Below are positions 2,609-20,266 of a DNA stretch of 28,743 nt, one piece after another. The position numbers and the translations under genes were made by a program. The first letter of the stretch is position 1, and every line of letters begins with the position of its first letter. The stretch is from a virus: IMG/VR virus record IMGVR_UViG_3300042430_001698, positions 1 through 28,743 of that record; one strand, 5' to 3'. The notes beneath the pieces are model-generated. The model made no database searches and was not told the DNA's origin. It was given only the letters and a program-made list of their open reading frames with translations.

Positions 2609-3273
2609 GAAATATACACATCATTCACGCTAGCCGTGCAAGGGCAAGCCAAGCGGAGCGCACGTATCGTAACTGGTCAAACTACATGGTATTTGGCGAT
2701 AGCTACACGATAGCAATAGAAGCTGACAACTGGAGCGATTACCGAAATTTGCCGGTATTGATTGTGCCGAGCAAAACAGCTATTTCGGCTTACAATTTAG
2801 CGGCTAAGGAATTGCAAGGTAAGTTCAAAGAGAACGATATTATAATAGCCTTAAGCGACGATTTCCCAATGCCGTGCGATTTAGATTTAATTCGAGATGC
2901 GGTCGATACCGATAAGCTATTAAAGACTTACGATGGTGTGCAAAATTGGATAGTTACACTTCCTATTATGGGTGTCGGTTACTACAAAAGCAAAGGCTAC
3001 ATTTATCCACCACAGTACAGCCACATGTTTGCAGATACGCATATAACACATGAAGCGGAGATTGAAGGCAAGTTGCAATTCCGAAACGATATAGTAATTA
3101 AACATGAGCACTATTCTATTGGTGGTGTCGCAAAGGATTATCTGAATGAGAGAAACGATGGAACTTGGAAACAAGGCATGGACGAATATTTAAAATGGGC
3201 TAAAGCAAAGCCATTACCTACAAGTAAAGAAGCGCAGCCACATGTTAACTGGATGAAACAAAATGGATATTAA
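2605..3273 (+). CDS. Glycosyltransferase-like protein, GT-A type
   Basis: A 222-residue soluble protein. An N-terminal beta strand (IHIIHASRARASQ) resembles the nucleotide-sugar-binding start of GT-A enzymes. IIIALSDDFPMP (around residues 100-111) looks like a strand ending in the metal-binding acidic pair. A later IVIKHEHYS could supply the histidine that often coordinates the metal in GT2-like enzymes. It overlaps the genes on both sides (ATGA at 2605; 11 bases at the 3' end). Substrate unknown. The assignment rests on motif layout only. Confidence 0.5.
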   Translation: MRNIHIIHASRARASQAERTYRNWSNYMVFGDSYTIAIEADNWSDYRNLPVLIVPSKTAISAYNLAAKELQGKFKENDIIIALSDDFPMPCDLDLIRDAVDTDKLLKTYDGVQNWIVTLPIMGVGYYKSKGYIYPPQYSHMFADTHITHEAEIEGKLQFRNDIVIKHEHYSIGGVAKDYLNERNDGTWKQGMDEYLKWAKAKPLPTSKEAQPHVNWMKQNGY

Positions 3274-3838
3274 ACTTAGCATTTTGATTTGTTCAATTCC
3301 TGAAAGAAGCCAGCAACTTGCTGAAGTATTAACTATATTTAAAAATCAAACAGTTGGAAAACCTGTTGAGATTTTATCTGATTGCACGGGCAAAGAACTT
3401 AGCATCGGTAGCAAGCGACAAAAATTACTTGAAAAAGCGCAAGGCAAATGGATTGTTTATTTTGACGATGACGATTTACCATTTAACTACTATGTAAATG
3501 AAATTTTAAAAGGTTGCGATACAGATGCAGACTGCATGGGAATTAATGGTATAATGACTACAAATGGTCAAAACCAACAAACATGGGTGCATAAGTTAGG
3601 TTATCCAATAGCAGAAAATATGTTTGGTTTTAATTACGTTCGTCCGATTATACATTTTAATCCAGTCTTAAAATGGAAAGCAATTTTAGCAGGCTTTAAA
3701 GATATGCGATATGGTGAGGATATGGACTATGCAAAAAGGCTAAACCCATTACTTGAAAAAGAATATTACATAAACAAACCTTTATTTCATTATCGGTATT
3801 CAAATAAAATCCCACATAACCAAAAATATGGAATCTAA
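3263..3838 (+). CDS. Family 2 glycosyltransferase
   Basis: A 191-residue GT-A-fold enzyme. The N-terminal strand LSILICSIPER is typical of GT2. IVYFDDDDLPF (around residues 69-79) is the DXD metal/nucleotide-sugar site. YGEDMDYAKRL (around residues 151-161) fits the ED catalytic-base motif. It is short for a GT2 enzyme, with a compact catalytic core and no membrane segment. It would transfer a sugar from a nucleotide donor; acceptor unknown. Third-position A/T is high here compared with the capsid gene, which may reflect lateral acquisition. It overlaps both neighbours by 11 bases. Confidence 0.78.
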   Translation: MDIKLSILICSIPERSQQLAEVLTIFKNQTVGKPVEILSDCTGKELSIGSKRQKLLEKAQGKWIVYFDDDDLPFNYYVNEILKGCDTDADCMGINGIMTTNGQNQQTWVHKLGYPIAENMFGFNYVRPIIHFNPVLKWKAILAGFKDMRYGEDMDYAKRLNPLLEKEYYINKPLFHYRYSNKIPHNQKYGI

Positions 3839-5247: not shown

Positions 5248-6011
5248 TGAAGCTAGCTGCTATTTTTAATGTATACGATGGTGAAGAACTTTTAGAAGGT
5301 TCTATACGTCAGATACTGCCCTATGTTGATGAGGTAATAGCCGTTGTGCAAACAATTAGCAATTGGGGCGAAAGATATTACGGGGGTGCAAATGAAGTAG
5401 ATAGGCTGTTTAATAAAGGTTACATTAATAAAGTAATAGAATTTGAGCCACAAATAACTAACGAGCGTTTAAACGGATGCTATAACGAAACAAAAAAAAG
5501 GTCACTAGGCTTGGATTATGCAAGGCAAAAAGGACACAGCCATTTTCTATTTTTGGATTGTGACGAGTATTACGATAGTGAGCAGTTTGAACAAGCTAAA
5601 AACTTTATAGTTGAAAAGGATTTGCATGCTACTTGCTGTCACATCCAAGCCTACGAGAAATACCCTACACTGGCCAAAATAGAAACCGAAGGGTATTACG
5701 TGCCGTTTATTCACAAAATACAGACTACTAACAAAATAGGTTTTCAAAAATACCCGTACTATTGCGACCCTACTCGCACTACAGACCATAGCTATTCACA
5801 CCTTTTCAAAAAAGAAGAGGTGTTAATGCACCATTTTACAACTATCAGAACCGATATTGAGCGAAAATACAGAAACTCGAGCGCTAAAAATAATTTTCAA
5901 ATAGAGGAAATGTTGCACATTTATGCACAAATACAAGAGAAGGAAAGCAATTCGCTTAATTTAGTGCCAAACAAATTTGGCATCCATGTCGGCAATAGCA
6001 CGATTTTATAA
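5241..6011 (+). CDS. Family 2 glycosyltransferase
   Basis: A 256-residue GT-A protein. LAAIFNVYDGEELLEGSI is the typical GT2 N-terminal strand and helix. SHFLFLDCDEYYD (around residues 99-111) carries the DxDE metal-binding site. The ending SNSLNLVPNKFG is divergent. Two starts are possible: ATG 5241, or ATG 5247, which forms a TAATG overlap with the upstream stop. The second matches the coupling used elsewhere and would shorten the protein by two residues. The gene overlaps the portal gene by up to 35 bases, so the cassette appears to run into the head genes without a break. Confidence 0.75.
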   Translation: MVMKLAAIFNVYDGEELLEGSIRQILPYVDEVIAVVQTISNWGERYYGGANEVDRLFNKGYINKVIEFEPQITNERLNGCYNETKKRSLGLDYARQKGHSHFLFLDCDEYYDSEQFEQAKNFIVEKDLHATCCHIQAYEKYPTLAKIETEGYYVPFIHKIQTTNKIGFQKYPYYCDPTRTTDHSYSHLFKKEEVLMHHFTTIRTDIERKYRNSSAKNNFQIEEMLHIYAQIQEKESNSLNLVPNKFGIHVGNSTIL

Positions 6012-12752: not shown

Positions 12753-14666
12753 TTAAAAAGGGTTTTCTTCATCAATTACTGTATGTATTCTTTTAACGGC
12801 TAAGTCCAGTGGGTTACTGCTAAATTCAGGCATTTCGGCATACTCTTCTACTATCTTTTTGTCGGTTTCTTTGGCTTTCTCTTTAATGTACATTTCGAGG
12901 TGGTCAACACCTTCTACTAAATATCTTTTTGACCTGCCATCCATGTTTATTTCTTTCATCCCTATTTTTCCAACTATCTTTTGCCTACGTATTTTTAGGC
13001 TCTCAATTTGGCAAATAGTGCTTTCGGGGTCGGTTTGGCGATACGGTCTGTGATAAACAAGTATGTTATCCATTTTATTATTCCACATTGCACCACCTGC
13101 AATCATTCCCGTGTTTGGTCGTGGAAAATTCCCATCCGCACCTGCTCGCAATGCTTCTTTTGTCGGGTGCGCTACAATCACAAAGCACTGGTCATTCTCC
13201 CTTGCAAACTGCGTATATTCACTTAAAACCCTGCCTATGTATTGGTCATCTCTTGCTACACCTTGCTCGGCATTTGATAGCTGGTTAAATGGGTCAATTA
13301 CGCAAAAGTCCACCTTCTTTTTGATTATCAATTCCAAAAACCTTGCACGGATATAACTTGGTGTCGGGAAATTATCTTTGGGGTATACAAAGAAAAAATG
13401 GTCTGCAATGAAATCATAAATCGCACTGTATAAATTCTCATCGGGTCGGCTAAGCAAAAAAGGAAGGCAAGGACTTCCCCAATAAATCTCTACAAGTTCA
13501 TGATAAAATTCATGTGCTGGGAAATCTTCAGGTGCGTATAAAGCAAATTTTTTATTCTCACATACTACCTGCAAAAGCATCAAGTATTTTAGAAATGTCG
13601 ATTTGCCATAATTACCTATTCCAGTAAGCAAAGTTATTTCACCTTTTTTCCATTTAAAAAGATTGTCTAGTTCCCCCATGTAAAGAGGACTTGCAGATAC
13701 ATGGCCATAACGCAAAAGATTCAAAGCATCTTCTTTCACATCTTCACCGAAAATAACATCCTTTGCTTTTTCCTCAAGGTCGTAAATCGAATCGTCTATT
13801 TTAACCTCGCAGTTATCTACTCGGTTAACTAGCACATCCTTTGTAAAATGCGCTGAGTTAGCTTGGTTAGAACGATATGCGCTGTTGATAGCTTGCTCTG
13901 CCTCGTGCTGGCTAAACTCCGTGCTTTTGCTTAAAATATCATAATTGATATTGGCTTGGCAATCCGATTTGCTCATTCCAAAGCGACAACATGCCGAGGC
14001 TAACTTGTAAATAAATCGGTTTCTATTACCGTTTATAAAAGCTTCGTTACTATTGGTTAGCCATGTAAGTAGCTTTTGATATACCTCGTTTTGCGGAACC
14101 TCGATATTTTGTTTCTGCTGGTATGTTTGAACTATCTTGTACTTGGTAAAAGGCTCGCACGTTTCTTTGATTAAAATATCGGGGTCGTAGCTTTCAAAAC
14201 ATACCCTAGCTACGTTAATGCCAGTGCGGTCTATTTCGGGCATAATATCGCGCAAGGCTTCAAAATGCTCACGGTGTCTTTTGCCATCTGCTATTCTAAC
14301 AAGTAACTTAACACCAGTCGCTCTTGGACTAAGCCAACTGGCAATTGCATAAGGCAATTCAAACAATTCTTTCTTTTTGGCTTCAGGGTTTTTTTCATCA
14401 TCAAAGTCTAAAATTAAAAACCCCGAATGTTCGACTATCAAATTGTCTTTCCTATTGGCTTCGAATTTGCCACTAAAACAGACACTAGGAAGCGTTTTTT
14501 TTATTTCGTTAGCTTCATCCTTGCTTTTAGCTTTGCGTATCTCCAGCACGCGATTTTTGGCCTTCTTGCCGTTCTTAATTCTTTCTAACGCTTGCGCTAT
14601 TGTAATGTGCGCAAATTCATCGGTCTTGACGATGTTAGGGTATATCGTGCAGATTTTATTTAGCAT
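12753..14666 (-). CDS. Primase-helicase: BT4734-like N-terminal domain plus RecA-like ATPase
   Basis: A 637-residue protein. The N-terminal part (about residues 60-175) has GFLILDFDDEKNPEAKK and a later WLSPRATGVKLLVRI, the layout of the BT4734-like/primase-polymerase-like domain, with acidic residues at 87-90 as likely metal ligands. A middle helical part follows. The C-terminal RecA-like domain has Walker A GIGNYGKST (349-357), Walker B VDFCVIDPF (452-460) and VIVAHP with H500, as in DnaB/Twinkle-type replicative helicases. It would unwind the fork and may prime synthesis. It overlaps the O-like gene by 11 bases, so the two replication proteins are coupled. A replicative role is well supported; primer synthesis is inferred. 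Confidence 0.82.
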   Translation of the reverse strand: MLNKICTIYPNIVKTDEFAHITIAQALERIKNGKKAKNRVLEIRKAKSKDEANEIKKTLPSVCFSGKFEANRKDNLIVEHSGFLILDFDDEKNPEAKKKELFELPYAIASWLSPRATGVKLLVRIADGKRHREHFEALRDIMPEIDRTGINVARVCFESYDPDILIKETCEPFTKYKIVQTYQQKQNIEVPQNEVYQKLLTWLTNSNEAFINGNRNRFIYKLASACCRFGMSKSDCQANINYDILSKSTEFSQHEAEQAINSAYRSNQANSAHFTKDVLVNRVDNCEVKIDDSIYDLEEKAKDVIFGEDVKEDALNLLRYGHVSASPLYMGELDNLFKWKKGEITLLTGIGNYGKSTFLKYLMLLQVVCENKKFALYAPEDFPAHEFYHELVEIYWGSPCLPFLLSRPDENLYSAIYDFIADHFFFVYPKDNFPTPSYIRARFLELIIKKKVDFCVIDPFNQLSNAEQGVARDDQYIGRVLSEYTQFARENDQCFVIVAHPTKEALRAGADGNFPRPNTGMIAGGAMWNNKMDNILVYHRPYRQTDPESTICQIESLKIRRQKIVGKIGMKEINMDGRSKRYLVEGVDHLEMYIKEKAKETDKKIVEEYAEMPEFSSNPLDLAVKRIHTVIDEENPF

Positions 14667-15489
14667 AATTTTGAAGTTTATAAAATTTTAAAATTTCATC
14701 AAGTTCTGTATCGGACAATATTTTGTCATCATCCCATCTCAAAGGGCGCAATCCAAGTTTCAAACAATCGTAGTAATAGATGTACGGCTGTTGGTAGTTG
14801 GAAGGTATTGGTGTTTGTTTCGGATGTAAAGGCAAAGGTAAAGGTGTGCTAACGGCTGGCAAAATTATTTCATCTTCCCATGCACAATTATTTAAGTACG
14901 TGTCGGGGTTTTTTCTGTACTGCGAATCAGGTGTGACCGCTACATATTTAGGTACATGCAAAATTATAGCTTGCTTAGTTTCTTCTTTTAACTTACTCCA
15001 TTTTTTCAGCGTATTTTTCTTATCTACTTTTTTATCGTACAAATTCCAAAAAGTATCAAACAAAGAATCATTAATTGTTTTTGGTTCTATTGTTTTTGGT
15101 TCTATTGTTGTTTGTTCTATTATGGGTACAGTGCTGTCCTTTTGCTGTATAGTCGCTAAATCAAGTGCTGTATAAGTGCTGTCCTTCCGCTGTATCAATT
15201 TTTGATTAAGCGAAATTATTGTACTTGTGTTTTGATTAATTGATTTTTGTACGACTATAATAAAACCCCACTCAACTAAATCATTAAAAACACCATAGTA
15301 AGTGTTCTTTGATTTTATACGAAGTATCTCCATTGAATCTTCTGTTGGCAATCCAAACTTTTCTTTTTGCCCAAGACGATTCCACTTTTCGCATATCCAA
15401 AAAAACATAGCTGTATGGTTGCTATTGTATTTATCAGGATTGTCAAAGCACCAATTATGCCATGTCCGACTTAATTCATATCCGTTCAT
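14656..15489 (-). CDS. O-like replication initiator (winged-helix) protein
   Basis: A 277-residue protein. Residues about 1-95 look like the winged-helix DNA-binding domain of phage O/DnaD-like replication proteins (FFWICEKWNRLGQKEKFGLP, then SKNTYYGVFNDLVEWGFI). A low-complexity linker contains IEPKTIEPKTI. The C-terminal part (DTFWNLYDKKVDKKNTLKKW, then YRKNPDTYLNNCAWEDE) matches the widespread end domain of phage replisome-organiser proteins. It would bind the origin and load the helicase encoded next. The linker-coding DNA is full of short repeats, as in lambda O. It is preceded by the structured leader at 15508-15612. Confidence 0.78.
   Translation of the reverse strand: MNGYELSRTWHNWCFDNPDKYNSNHTAMFFWICEKWNRLGQKEKFGLPTEDSMEILRIKSKNTYYGVFNDLVEWGFIIVVQKSINQNTSTIISLNQKLIQRKDSTYTALDLATIQQKDSTVPIIEQTTIEPKTIEPKTINDSLFDTFWNLYDKKVDKKNTLKKWSKLKEETKQAIILHVPKYVAVTPDSQYRKNPDTYLNNCAWEDEIILPAVSTPLPLPLHPKQTPIPSNYQQPYIYYYDCLKLGLRPLRWDDDKILSDTELDEILKFYKLQNYAK
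15074..15195. repeat. Iteron-like repeats inside the initiator gene, candidate origin
   Basis: Three tandem 15-mers of type ATTGTTTTTGGTTCT lie at 15074-15088, 15089-15103 and 15104-15118; the first two are identical and the third diverges. A 20-mer, GTGCTGTCCTTTTGCTGTAT, lies at 15131-15150 and recurs with two changes at 15176-15195; GTGCTGT also occurs at 15165. Further AT-rich TTTTGATTAA repeats lie at about 15200-15240. Repeats in the middle of an O-type gene are the known layout of the lambda origin. Origin function is inferred. Confidence 0.55.
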
Positions 15490-15507: not shown

Positions 15508-15612
15508 AAAAAACCCACCAACTTTCGGTAAATGCAGTTACCTACGGTTAATGGGTTTTGGTCTAAGACCAATACTCTACATCGTCTGCATACGAAGGGC
15601 AATCCTTTTGCC
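15508..15612 (-). ncRNA. Structured leader/small RNA with kissing hairpins, copy 1
   Basis: Read on the minus strand from a TATATTTG promoter. Hairpin A pairs 15608-15612 with 15598-15602. Hairpin B pairs 15592-15595 with 15582-15585 around a six-base loop (15586-15591). Hairpin C pairs GGTC with GACC (15560-15570). A closing stem AAAACCCA/TGGGTTTT (15552-15559 with 15510-15517) encloses hairpin D (15538-15542 with 15527-15531). The loop of B is perfectly complementary to the six-base loop of D (15532-15537). The closing stem runs into a U-tract, like a terminator. It ends about 18 bases before the initiator gene start. It may be a cis regulator or a separate small RNA. Confidence 0.72.
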
Positions 15613-15616
15613 AGTA

Positions 15617-15624
15617 CAAATATA
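15617..15624 (-). promoter_or_regulatory. Bacteroidota-type promoter, -7 element TATATTTG
   Basis: 15624-15617 on the minus strand reads TATATTTG. The predicted start at about 15612-15613 coincides with the first G of hairpin A of the structured RNA. No convincing TTG is found 19-22 bases upstream. Confidence 0.68.
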
Positions 15625-15631
15625 CTAAATT

Positions 15632-17794
15632 TTAAAACAACGATGTTTGTTTTTTAACTTCAGTACAATTAATTAGATTCTTTTTAGCTATATCGAAATA
15701 ACTTTCTTTTAACTCAAATCCTATCCCTTTTCTACCCATTTTTACAGCTTGATAAACTTCGCTACCAATACCCATAAATGGTGTTAAAACAATATCACCT
15801 TTATTAGAATATAGATGTATTAGCCTTTCAATTGTATCAAGTTGAAGAGGGCATATATGTTTTTCGTCATTGTCTTCTCTACCATTTCTAAACCCTTGTA
15901 AAGTATTTGAATAGTTTATATCCATCCATACTGGAGATGCATATTTTTGCCATAAATTGACACTTAATTCTGTATTCATTACTGGGTTATTTCTTTCACC
16001 ATCTTTTCTAAATATCATTACATAATCAGGAATACCGACACGGCTCATAGTACTATCCTTTTTCACTTGTTTATGCAGTAATCCAAGTGCTTTTGTTCTT
16101 TGCATTTCAATTACTGGGTCTTTCCAAATAGTAACTCTACTTGCATAAATAAAACCTGCATCTTCAAAAGATTTTAAAATCATTCCACTAAAATCACGAA
16201 GTCCAATAAATCCTTCTTTCCCTTTTTGTATTGGCAAATCCATACAATGAATTGCCACATTTCTGCCTTGCATCATTACTCTATATAACTCTTTAATAAG
16301 AAAACTAAATTGCGTTAAAAATTCATTGTAATCTTTTGAATTACCCATATCTTCTATATGGTTTGAATAAGTATATAATTCGGCAAATGGAGGACTAAAT
16401 ACACTCAATCCAATACTTTCATTTGGTACATTTTTAATTAACTGGATACAATCACCTCTTTGTATTGAGTACCATTCATTTTTTACTTCTTTATTATCAA
16501 ATTCATTTACTTTCATAATTTTACCAGCTAAATTAAGATTAACTGCTTTTGCCATTTCCTCTTGCATAATTTCAAATTGTTTTTGTTTTGCATCTATTGC
16601 ATGTTTTACATTAGCCATTGTATCTGTTGTTATCAAATAAATATTTACTTCGTTTTTTTGACCAAAACGATAACTTCTTCTAATTGCTTGATATAAACCT
16701 TCAAATGAAAAATCTAAACTTGCAAAAATTTGATTTCTACAGTTTTGATAGTTCATTCCAAAACTTGCTATTTTGGTTTTGGTTATCAATATTCTAAATT
16801 CATTATTTGCAAATCCAAGCAGCTTGTCTTTTTTCCATTCGTTACTATCACTACCTTTAACTTCAACCGCATCAGGAATTAGTTTTTTAAGTAGTTCTCC
16901 CTCCTCGTTTTGCTTAATCCAAATGATAAAATTTTCATCAGGCTTTTCATTTATGATTTTCACTACTTCATCAAGTCGATCTACTATGGTTAATCTTAAT
17001 TCTTGATTGAAGTTTGTTGCAGAAATAATTGCATCGTTGAATAAACTGCCGTTATCTCGCTTTAATGTTTTGATTTGATTTTCCAGCAAGTTCAACTTAG
17101 GCAAATCATATCCTATCATTTCAAAACCAATATCGATAGGTTTGTTTAACATTATAGCCCAACTTCCTATAAACTGATAAAACATCTTTACAGCGTGTCC
17201 TTTTAACCTCCATTTAGCCGTTTCCCCTCCATCGTGAACAAAATACATTGCTAACATCTCATTTCTGCTCATAACGTCTAAAAATTCACTATGATTACCT
17301 AACTCCATTGGATCATTTGGGGATGGAGTAGCAGTACAAGCTAATTTATAAGGTGTTTTTATAAAATTATCAATTATTTGTTTTTTGGTAGCACCTTCAA
17401 AATTTTTTAAAATGCTGCTTTCATCAAGTACAATACCACTATAAATTGAAGAATTAATATTATCAATCTGCTCGTAATTTTTAACATGTATATGTGTCAT
17501 GTCAATACCAAATTTTAATCCCTCTTGTATTGTTTGAGAAGTTACTGCTAGAGGTGCCAAAATTAAAACTGGTTTATTAGTAAATTTATATACTTGATTT
17601 GCCCATTCTAATTGCATTAATGTTTTACCCAATCCACAATCGGCAAAAATCGCATACTTACCAGCTTTTAAAGCACGTTTAACAATAAATTTTTGAAAAG
17701 GAAACATAGCCTTATTTAAATTACTATCTTCAATTTCAAATCCTGATAAAACGTGTGTTTTTTGTTTTTTGTTAATAAATTCTAAATACTCCAT
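15632..17794 (-). CDS. SNF2-type helicase fused to a DNA adenine/N4-cytosine methyltransferase
   Basis: A 720-residue, two-domain protein. The N-terminal helicase (about residues 30-430) has Walker A GLGKT (54-58), motif II DESS (124-127), motif III TATPSPND (154-161), and motifs V and VI as KIASFGMNYQ and QAIRRSYRFGQ, the SNF2 signature. The C-terminal methyltransferase (about residues 460-715) has motif IV SPPF in LSVFSPPFAELY and motif I after it in TPFMGIGSEVYQAVKMGRKG, a beta-class order. SPP[YF] fits N6-adenine or N4-cytosine methylation. No nuclease domain is visible, so this is not a complete type I, III or ISP restriction enzyme. A role in protecting phage DNA is inferred. The gene is very AT-rich and has its own promoter and structured leader. 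Confidence 0.85.
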   Translation of the reverse strand: MEYLEFINKKQKTHVLSGFEIEDSNLNKAMFPFQKFIVKRALKAGKYAIFADCGLGKTLMQLEWANQVYKFTNKPVLILAPLAVTSQTIQEGLKFGIDMTHIHVKNYEQIDNINSSIYSGIVLDESSILKNFEGATKKQIIDNFIKTPYKLACTATPSPNDPMELGNHSEFLDVMSRNEMLAMYFVHDGGETAKWRLKGHAVKMFYQFIGSWAIMLNKPIDIGFEMIGYDLPKLNLLENQIKTLKRDNGSLFNDAIISATNFNQELRLTIVDRLDEVVKIINEKPDENFIIWIKQNEEGELLKKLIPDAVEVKGSDSNEWKKDKLLGFANNEFRILITKTKIASFGMNYQNCRNQIFASLDFSFEGLYQAIRRSYRFGQKNEVNIYLITTDTMANVKHAIDAKQKQFEIMQEEMAKAVNLNLAGKIMKVNEFDNKEVKNEWYSIQRGDCIQLIKNVPNESIGLSVFSPPFAELYTYSNHIEDMGNSKDYNEFLTQFSFLIKELYRVMMQGRNVAIHCMDLPIQKGKEGFIGLRDFSGMILKSFEDAGFIYASRVTIWKDPVIEMQRTKALGLLHKQVKKDSTMSRVGIPDYVMIFRKDGERNNPVMNTELSVNLWQKYASPVWMDINYSNTLQGFRNGREDNDEKHICPLQLDTIERLIHLYSNKGDIVLTPFMGIGSEVYQAVKMGRKGIGFELKESYFDIAKKNLINCTEVKKQTSLF

Positions 17795-17810
17795 TTTTTT
17801 AAGTTTAAAT

Positions 17811-17919
17811 AAAAAACCCCAAAATCAGAAGCCTCTACACTTCATCATTCAGGGTTTTAGGTGATAATCACCATAATCTTGCATACAGTAGAGGATGTAT
17901 GGTAAAGCTATTGCTTTAC
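17811..17919 (-). ncRNA. Structured leader/small RNA with kissing hairpins, copy 2
   Basis: Minus strand, same architecture as the element at 15508-15612. Hairpin A: seven pairs (17913-17919 with 17902-17908). Hairpin B: CATAC/GTATG (17897-17901 with 17882-17886). Hairpin C: GGTGA/TCACC (17860-17872). A closing stem AAAACCC/GGGTTTT (17852-17858 with 17813-17819) encloses hairpin D, GAAG/CTTC (17840-17843 with 17828-17831). Seven bases of loop B (17888-17894) are perfectly complementary to seven bases of loop D (17832-17838). The loop sequences differ from copy 1, so the pairing covaries. The final stem runs into a U-tract. The helicase-methyltransferase start lies 17 bases downstream. Confidence 0.72.
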
Positions 17920-17924
17920 AGTTA

Positions 17925-17957
17925 CAAATATAATACTTTAATTATTTTGCGCTTCAA
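17925..17957 (-). promoter_or_regulatory. Bacteroidota-type promoter with repressor half-site
   Basis: 17932-17925 on the minus strand is TATATTTG, with a possible TTG at 17957-17955 (spacer 22). The bases just upstream read AAGTATT, overlapping the -7 element by one base. This is the same geometry as the half-sites of the operator palindrome at 22965-22978. The predicted start is at hairpin A of the structured RNA. The promoter overlaps the stop region of the 118-residue gene upstream. Confidence 0.68.
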
Positions 17958-19615: not shown

Positions 19616-20266
19616 CTAAAATAATAATTGTTGTTTTAAATTTGATTTTCCAATAATTCCTCTTGCTGTGTTAAATATGGTTAGTCCTGCTTCATAATCT
19701 ACCAGGTTACGAGCAATTTTATCAAGTCTTTGACTCCCTTTGTATTTTGTAAAATCATAATCATGGAATTCTGACAATTGTTTTATGTCTCCAACTTCTA
19801 TCATATTTTTGAACATTTTTCTTTGTCCTATATTATTTGGCAAATTAAAGTTGCACCAATACAAATGGCGACCTATCTTTTTTGCTGGTAATAATGGCTC
19901 ATAATAAGGGATAACATTTTCAACTACATATTTGCCATCAAAATAATTTTCCAAAAAAAGTATTTCTTCATATAGTTTTAAATCAGGATATAATGGAATA
20001 AAATTATCTCTGTTTTTTTGACTTATTCTTACTCTGCTATGGCTCGGACAAGGTGGCGAACTCCATATAAAATCAAACTCCTTAAAGTGTTCTAATAAAT
20101 ATTGATGCGCATCGGCAACTATTACCTTATCATTAGGAAAACGCTCTTGGTACATTCTTGCTAATTCAGGGTCAAGTTCAACTGCTGTTACTTCGCAATC
20201 TGTCCATTTGTACCTGTTGCCGCCAAGACACGCATAAAGATTTAAAACTTTAAAAGGCTTTTTCAT
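19616..20266 (-). CDS. DNA cytosine-C5 methyltransferase, short form
   Basis: A 216-residue protein. Motif I is LNLYACLGG (8-16), an acidic motif II residue lies in AVELDPE, motif IV is SPPCPSHSR with catalytic C73, and motif VI is VVENV (114-118). These identify the C5 family, which methylates the cytosine ring carbon. At 216 residues it is far shorter than typical members (over 300), so the target-recognition domain is small or reduced. Whether motifs IX and X are present is not clear. The gene is markedly AT-rich compared with the genes to its right, hinting at separate acquisition. It overlaps the upstream gene as TAATG. Confidence 0.82.
   Translation of the reverse strand: MKKPFKVLNLYACLGGNRYKWTDCEVTAVELDPELARMYQERFPNDKVIVADAHQYLLEHFKEFDFIWSSPPCPSHSRVRISQKNRDNFIPLYPDLKLYEEILFLENYFDGKYVVENVIPYYEPLLPAKKIGRHLYWCNFNLPNNIGQRKMFKNMIEVGDIKQLSEFHDYDFTKYKGSQRLDKIARNLVDYEAGLTIFNTARGIIGKSNLKQQLLF

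Follow-up and report, generated by a model that had tools for sequence, protein, structure and literature searches.

What are two similar minus-strand elements (15508-15612 and 17811-17919) in a virus record of 28.7 kb from IMG/VR, and what might they do for the genes behind them? An earlier note on this DNA (the window, that is, the whole stretch of 28,743 nucleotides) had described them as two copies of a promoter-started RNA, perhaps attenuating leaders of an initiator and a helicase-methyltransferase gene or else two small RNAs, with hairpins A, B, C and D in fixed order and a pairing between loops B and D. We found both elements at these coordinates and on this strand, with the parts arranged as hairpin A, B, C, a closing stem that holds D, a U-tract and the start of an open reading frame (Table 1). 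MFE folding returned exactly these hairpins and the D-bearing closing stem for both copies, with fold energies at z = -2.96 and -4.40 relative to dinucleotide shuffles. The exact TATATTTG box ahead of each copy suggests that both are transcribed from a local promoter, and both lie in leader position before the two genes. The loops pair as described, over all six bases of both loops in copy 1 and over 7 bp in copy 2. When the whole window was scanned with the descriptor explained below, the two elements scored 35 and 36 and the next best match 28, so that no others stand out.

Table 1. Parts of the two window elements and the genes downstream of them.
Feature	Position	Strand	Basis
Copy 1, promoter -7 box TATATTTG, Bacteroidota TAnnTTTG type	15617..15624	-	sequence
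Copy 1, hairpin A GGCAA/TTGCC, predicted RNA 5' end; not family-wide	15598..15612	-	fold
Copy 1, hairpin B TCGT-ATGCAG-ACGA, kissing loop ATGCAG	15582..15595	-	fold, descriptor
Copy 1, hairpin C TGGTC-TTA-GACCA; in some relatives only	15559..15571	-	fold
Copy 1, closing stem AAACCC...GGGTTT, internal loop CGTA/GAAA, holds hairpin D	15511..15558	-	fold
Copy 1, hairpin D, loop CTGCAT, complementary to loop B	15527-15542	-	fold
Copy 1, U-tract TTTTTT, closely 5' of initiator ATG at 15489	15508..15513	-	sequence
Copy 1, downstream gene: replication initiation protein, phrog_270	14656..15489	-	E 3.6e-16
Copy 2, promoter -7 box TATATTTG	17925..17932	-	sequence
Copy 2, hairpin A GTAAAGC/GCTTTAC; shared with related element L085:4209	17902..17919	-	fold
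Copy 2, hairpin B CATACA-TCCTCTAC-TGTATG, kissing loop CCTCTAC	17882..17901	-	fold, descriptor
Copy 2, hairpin C GGTGATTATCACC	17860..17872	-	fold
Copy 2, closing stem AAAACCC...GGGGTTT, internal loop TGAT/TGAT, holds hairpin D	17813..17858	-	fold
Copy 2, hairpin D, loop GTAGAGG, complementary to loop B	17828-17843	-	fold
Copy 2, U-tract TTTTTT, closely 5' of helicase-methyltransferase ATG at 17794	17811..17816	-	sequence
Copy 2, downstream gene: SNF2/ResIII helicase + N6/N4 DNA methyltransferase fusion, 720 aa	15632..17794	-	

Both copies are real, but they are not private to this virus: they belong, as far as the sequences tell, to a large and apparently undescribed RNA family in Bacteroidota viruses, the host of metagenomic contigs being assigned from promoter type and named relatives. 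Loci were collected by two protein-led scans (helicase-methyltransferase and initiator) and by one loose DNA pattern scan (TATATTTGT, 60-89 bases, GGGCTTTTTT) that ignored the loops. Member counts rest on a hand-made descriptor that combines the promoter box, hairpin B, the outer stem, a hairpin D complementary to loop B and a T-run. At scores of at least 34, this descriptor found 44 matches in the protein-led loci (1.45 Mb) and 1 in shuffled DNA; for the pattern-led loci the corresponding numbers were 77 and 0. Once the matches had been filtered and made non-redundant, 94 elements remained as the strict set, in which 64 different kissing sequences occur, all of them pairing. The homologs with compensating B/D changes on which the earlier note had made its claim depend thus exist in number, with about 90 relatives that carry other loops. 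The odds of two fully complementary loop pairs are small already, and these further elements leave chance as no tenable explanation; a simple repeat, also considered, was rejected, as the copies share their architecture and not their loop or stem sequences.

Since the strict set was selected on kissing complementarity, its informative part is the spread of pair types: each of the first six kissing positions shows all four Watson-Crick types, as do stems B and D. A non-circular test, in which each pattern match was folded by MFE and the loop of its last hairpin compared with the upstream loops, found the loops complementary over at least 6 bp in 48 of 95 phage matches, against 1.3% with swapped partners. 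None of the 90 matches to this pattern in genomes of bacteria and archaea showed such complementarity, and the contact therefore belongs to the phage elements and not to promoter-then-terminator arrangements in general. We also carried out the covariance modelling and covariation test that the earlier note had proposed. A model built from 11 members of one subfamily, without any kissing information, found 44 members at E < 1, a number that necessarily includes the 11 training sequences. In the alignment of these 44, 96.7% of the cells of the kissing helix are paired and 6 of its 7 positions show double changes; the whole-structure covariation score is 0.658, against 0.191 with shuffled partners and at most 0.106 when slid. 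A subfamily alignment with a covariance model was used here instead of a plain MAFFT alignment of mixed members, which misaligns the loops. Model R2 misses divergent members, for example the window copies and those of phage FCV-3. A covariance-model search of 300 Flavobacterium and 398 order-level genomes, a weak search with 11-14 candidates scored per genome, yielded none under strict filters.

Close relatives illustrate how the loops change together. L227 and L180, with 96% identity outside the loops, differ in two kissing pairs changed on both sides, L271 and L189 (93% identical) have three doubly changed kissing pairs, and window copy 2 and L085:4209 (78% identical) have six. The tertiary contact proposed from two copies is real, and the relatives keep the pairing with different loop sequences; the substitutions show that the predicted RNA has a B-D kissing contact of 6-10 Watson-Crick base pairs, most often 7. 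We regard it as virtually certain that these RNAs, the window elements included, form a genuine family in which the loop-loop contact is conserved.

The stems contain 52 G-U against 11 A-C pairs, and the kiss no G-U at all. The excess of G-U over A-C in the stems fits, as expected, the folding of an RNA from the promoter strand, in an alignment that was fitted to that strand and leans that way. This asymmetry, the constant promoter orientation, the U-tract and the ATG spacing make it highly improbable that the element works as a DNA-level structure, such as an origin or recombination site, in spite of the replication genes nearby and of the STAXI motifs, which lie near DNA-manipulation genes and for which an action as single-stranded DNA has been proposed (PMC2864571). 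The family resembles STAXI in being pseudoknotted and close to genes for DNA-manipulating proteins, but STAXI is a tandem-repeated pseudoknot with UUCG tetraloops (PMC2864571), whereas the family has a single long-range kiss and variable loops.

The predicted RNA is about 85-105 nt long and has a constant order: a TAnnTTTG promoter, hairpin B, an A/T-rich linker, a terminator-like hairpin whose apical loop kisses the loop of hairpin B, a U-tract and an ATG. The order A-B-C-D holds for both window copies but not for the family, in which A and C are not general and most relatives consist of B, the linker and the D terminator. In the strict set (n=94), the promoter box lies 2-30 nt before B, the B stem usually starts 2-12 nt after the -7 box, and loop B tends towards GTNGNAG. 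The linker measures 12-25 nt and the terminator hairpin about 46-50 nt, with a GC-rich stem and a mean of -19.8 kcal/mol. An internal loop between the outer and D stems recurs often and is non-canonical (GAGTA/GAAA or GTA/GAAA, TGAA/GGAT, TGAT/TGAT); such loops may represent bulged-G or tandem G-A motifs. A T-run of 4-9, modally 6-7, is found in 94 of 94 elements of this set, for which TTTT was required; without any T-run requirement, the protein-led loci held 17 elements against 1-2 in shuffled DNA, and most of these still carry 5-8 T. From the stem end to the ATG the median distance is 12 nt (IQR 9-19). The U-tract is interrupted in a few members (L096, L033 and the second L054 element).

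In 15 of the 94 elements the B sequence recurs, over at least 6 nt, between the U-tract and the ATG, against 2.1% with swapped partners. This third copy, B', occurs in three separate lineages, GTTGCAG, TCGCAGC and AGGCAG, and is carried by L163:1150, L179, L210, L264 and L168, by L197, L237, L242 and L265, and by L232 and L190; it is absent from most members, both window copies included. Where B is repeated in this way, loop D has two possible partners. A divergent relative lies 5' of the helicase gene in L071 (about 5880-5990), L075 and L078; here AACCGCCAAG pairs over 10 bases with the terminator-loop sequence CTTGGCGGTT, and a 28-codon open reading frame starts inside the leader. Behind the helicase, L071 and L075 have another element, which differs between the two by a swapped B/D pair.

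The earlier note had recognised no known family in these elements, and a search of Rfam 15 agrees: in the window and 12 further element-bearing loci no family reached the gathering threshold, apart from two tRNAs elsewhere, and the best sub-threshold matches to the two window elements were far below it. The open-access literature, as searched, contained no description of such an RNA family. A metabolite riboswitch was rejected, as no position but the T-tract is invariant in a 39-sequence alignment (poor in the loops) and the loops are highly varied. A peptide-coupled attenuator with a leader peptide was likewise rejected as a general feature, leader ORFs being no commoner (0.49) than in shuffles (0.56).

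Early DNA-metabolism genes lie downstream of the elements, most of them coding for replication initiators, helicase-methyltransferases or endonucleases. Among 83 scanned, 20 encode replication initiators or DnaD-like loaders (phrog_270), 10 DUF6291 proteins, 7 helicase-methyltransferases and about 6 HNH/NUMOD4 endonucleases, besides others. The window helicase-methyltransferase (15632-17794, minus strand) has 578 relatives in viral contigs, the best 80 of the 578 at 79-100% identity over about 720 aa. Isolated Flavobacterium phages with the element are FCV-3 (two), 11b, tooticki6-1 (two) and elemoA_7-9A, and Cellulophaga phage phi19:3 has two; the element also occurs in phages of Flavobacterium columnare that are regarded as lytic. 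In the genomes examined that have two copies the loops differ, with a longest shared run of at most 4. Some element-bearing contigs also contain tRNA genes (L174:7187-7257, L206:4915-5000).

Leader RNAs that control replication or antirepressor operons are known from P4 (CI) and P1/P7 (c4), and their immunity specificity lies in loop sequences. A control of this type, with a processed leader RNA that represses its own operon in trans and loop diversity that reflects immunity groups, seems quite improbable here: it would agree with the position before replication genes, with the fast-diverging, self-matching loops and with the order B-D-B' in three lineages, which resembles P4 seqA-seqB-seqC (PMC4825925), but not with the presence of the element in F. 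columnare phages and before endonuclease genes, with loops that differ within one genome or with the lack of a match to the c4 antisense model in Rfam (RF01695). One segment complementary to two flanking leader sites, as in P4 CI, was found in the three lineages only and in neither window copy. The family shares with the P4 CI RNA (seqA/seqB/seqC; PMC4825925) and c4 that they are small phage RNAs which derive from leaders and contain self-complementary segments; theirs pair in trans after processing, whereas the conserved pairing of the family is intramolecular, with one kissing partner inside the terminator-like hairpin.

Our preferred reading, with a probability of roughly 50%, is that the element is a cis-acting, kissing-locked attenuator leader of a phage gene. 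It is favoured because the order of the parts is constant and the start codon follows so closely; a GC-rich hairpin and a U-tract lie between promoter and start codon in 94 of 94 elements of the strict, TTTT-requiring set. From the local promoter, RNA polymerase would make hairpin B first, and B would capture D as it emerges and thereby stabilise the terminator-like hairpin, which would end most transcripts at the U-tract. In read-through mRNA, the same hairpin could crowd the start codon and hinder ribosomes, so that the downstream early gene would be held low or conditional, and the terminated RNA might be a by-product or a second regulator. A phage antiterminator, the state of the polymerase or an RNA-binding protein are candidates for releasing the lock. 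Loop sequences could drift freely, as we propose, because only self-complementarity matters, and the different loops of two copies in one genome would prevent cross-pairing. No mutually exclusive antiterminator fold was seen by eye, and B and D can pair while the terminator stem is in place. Several points speak against an attenuator: compact phage genomes put many things near start codons, expression of the phage genes has to be possible in some way, and the interrupted U-tracts of a few members imply that not every element need function as a strong intrinsic terminator.

Kissing and attenuation RNAs are known from plasmids, with ColE1 RNA I/RNA II and pT181-type repC attenuation. The phage family is like these in its fully paired kissing loops of 6-7 nt and in an attenuator hairpin directly before a replication-initiator gene, but their kisses form between RNAs of opposite strands, whereas both loops of the family are on one transcript. 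The put antiterminator RNA of HK022, which suppresses termination downstream, is likewise a structured RNA with two hairpins that directly follows early promoters of a phage; the family element differs in that it closes with a terminator-like hairpin of its own, and it is not known to contain a conserved put-like sequence.

The third copy of B in three lineages hints at translational or trans control rather than a cis attenuator, and such a mode is plausible for these lineages, as in IsrK of the Salmonella prophage Gifsy-1, a terminated small RNA that acts on its own read-through mRNA (PMC4825925). Like IsrK (PMC4825925), the family is phage-encoded, with its own promoter, a Rho-independent terminator just before the controlled genes and a long read-through transcript with the same leader, which for the family is predicted from the order of promoter, intrinsic terminator and gene in the 94 elements; it differs in host phylum and sequence, and no kissing-loop covariation family is described for IsrK there. 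That the family as a whole consists of such dual RNAs, in which a stable terminated RNA of about 90 nt would act in trans on the read-through transcript of its own promoter, loop D or B opening or closing the translation start, is rather doubtful. The shared layout (PMC4825925) and the two possible partners of loop D in three lineages argue for it; most members, however, have no third B, a search for trans targets in the same contigs gave no start-codon enrichment beyond the B' immediately downstream, the intramolecular kiss would hide both loops of the small RNA, and trans action on its own mRNA is a feature of IsrK (PMC4825925) that is unproved for the phage family. A leader whose kissing-locked hairpin acts chiefly on ribosome access, with termination as a side effect, is unlikely: the short distance from stem end to ATG, the poor U-tracts of some members and the overlap of B' with the start region in three lineages would suit this, but most members keep at least 5-6 T directly after the GC-rich stem, a feature for which a purely translational element has no use.

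We tentatively suggest that this phage-wide RNA class provides each leader with a private kissing code and each early gene with an orthogonal lock, the loops being selected to diversify fast for self-recognition and against cross-talk, possibly with feedback by the gene's own terminated transcript. Bacteroidota phages are abundant in water and gut, and little is known of their early-gene regulation. A clean covarying tertiary contact with more than 60 natural loop codes offers a regulatory element that can be tested in cultured phages, a natural data set on the energetics and evolution of kissing loops, and a possible source of orthogonal kissing-loop terminators or riboregulators for Bacteroidota.

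Two further genes of the window deserve mention. A 216-aa protein (19616-20266, minus strand) matches the first 86 of the 324 model positions of a C5 cytosine methyltransferase and is possibly degenerate or divergent. A glycosyltransferase-like protein (phrog_14775; 3263-3838, plus strand) is encoded amid structural genes.
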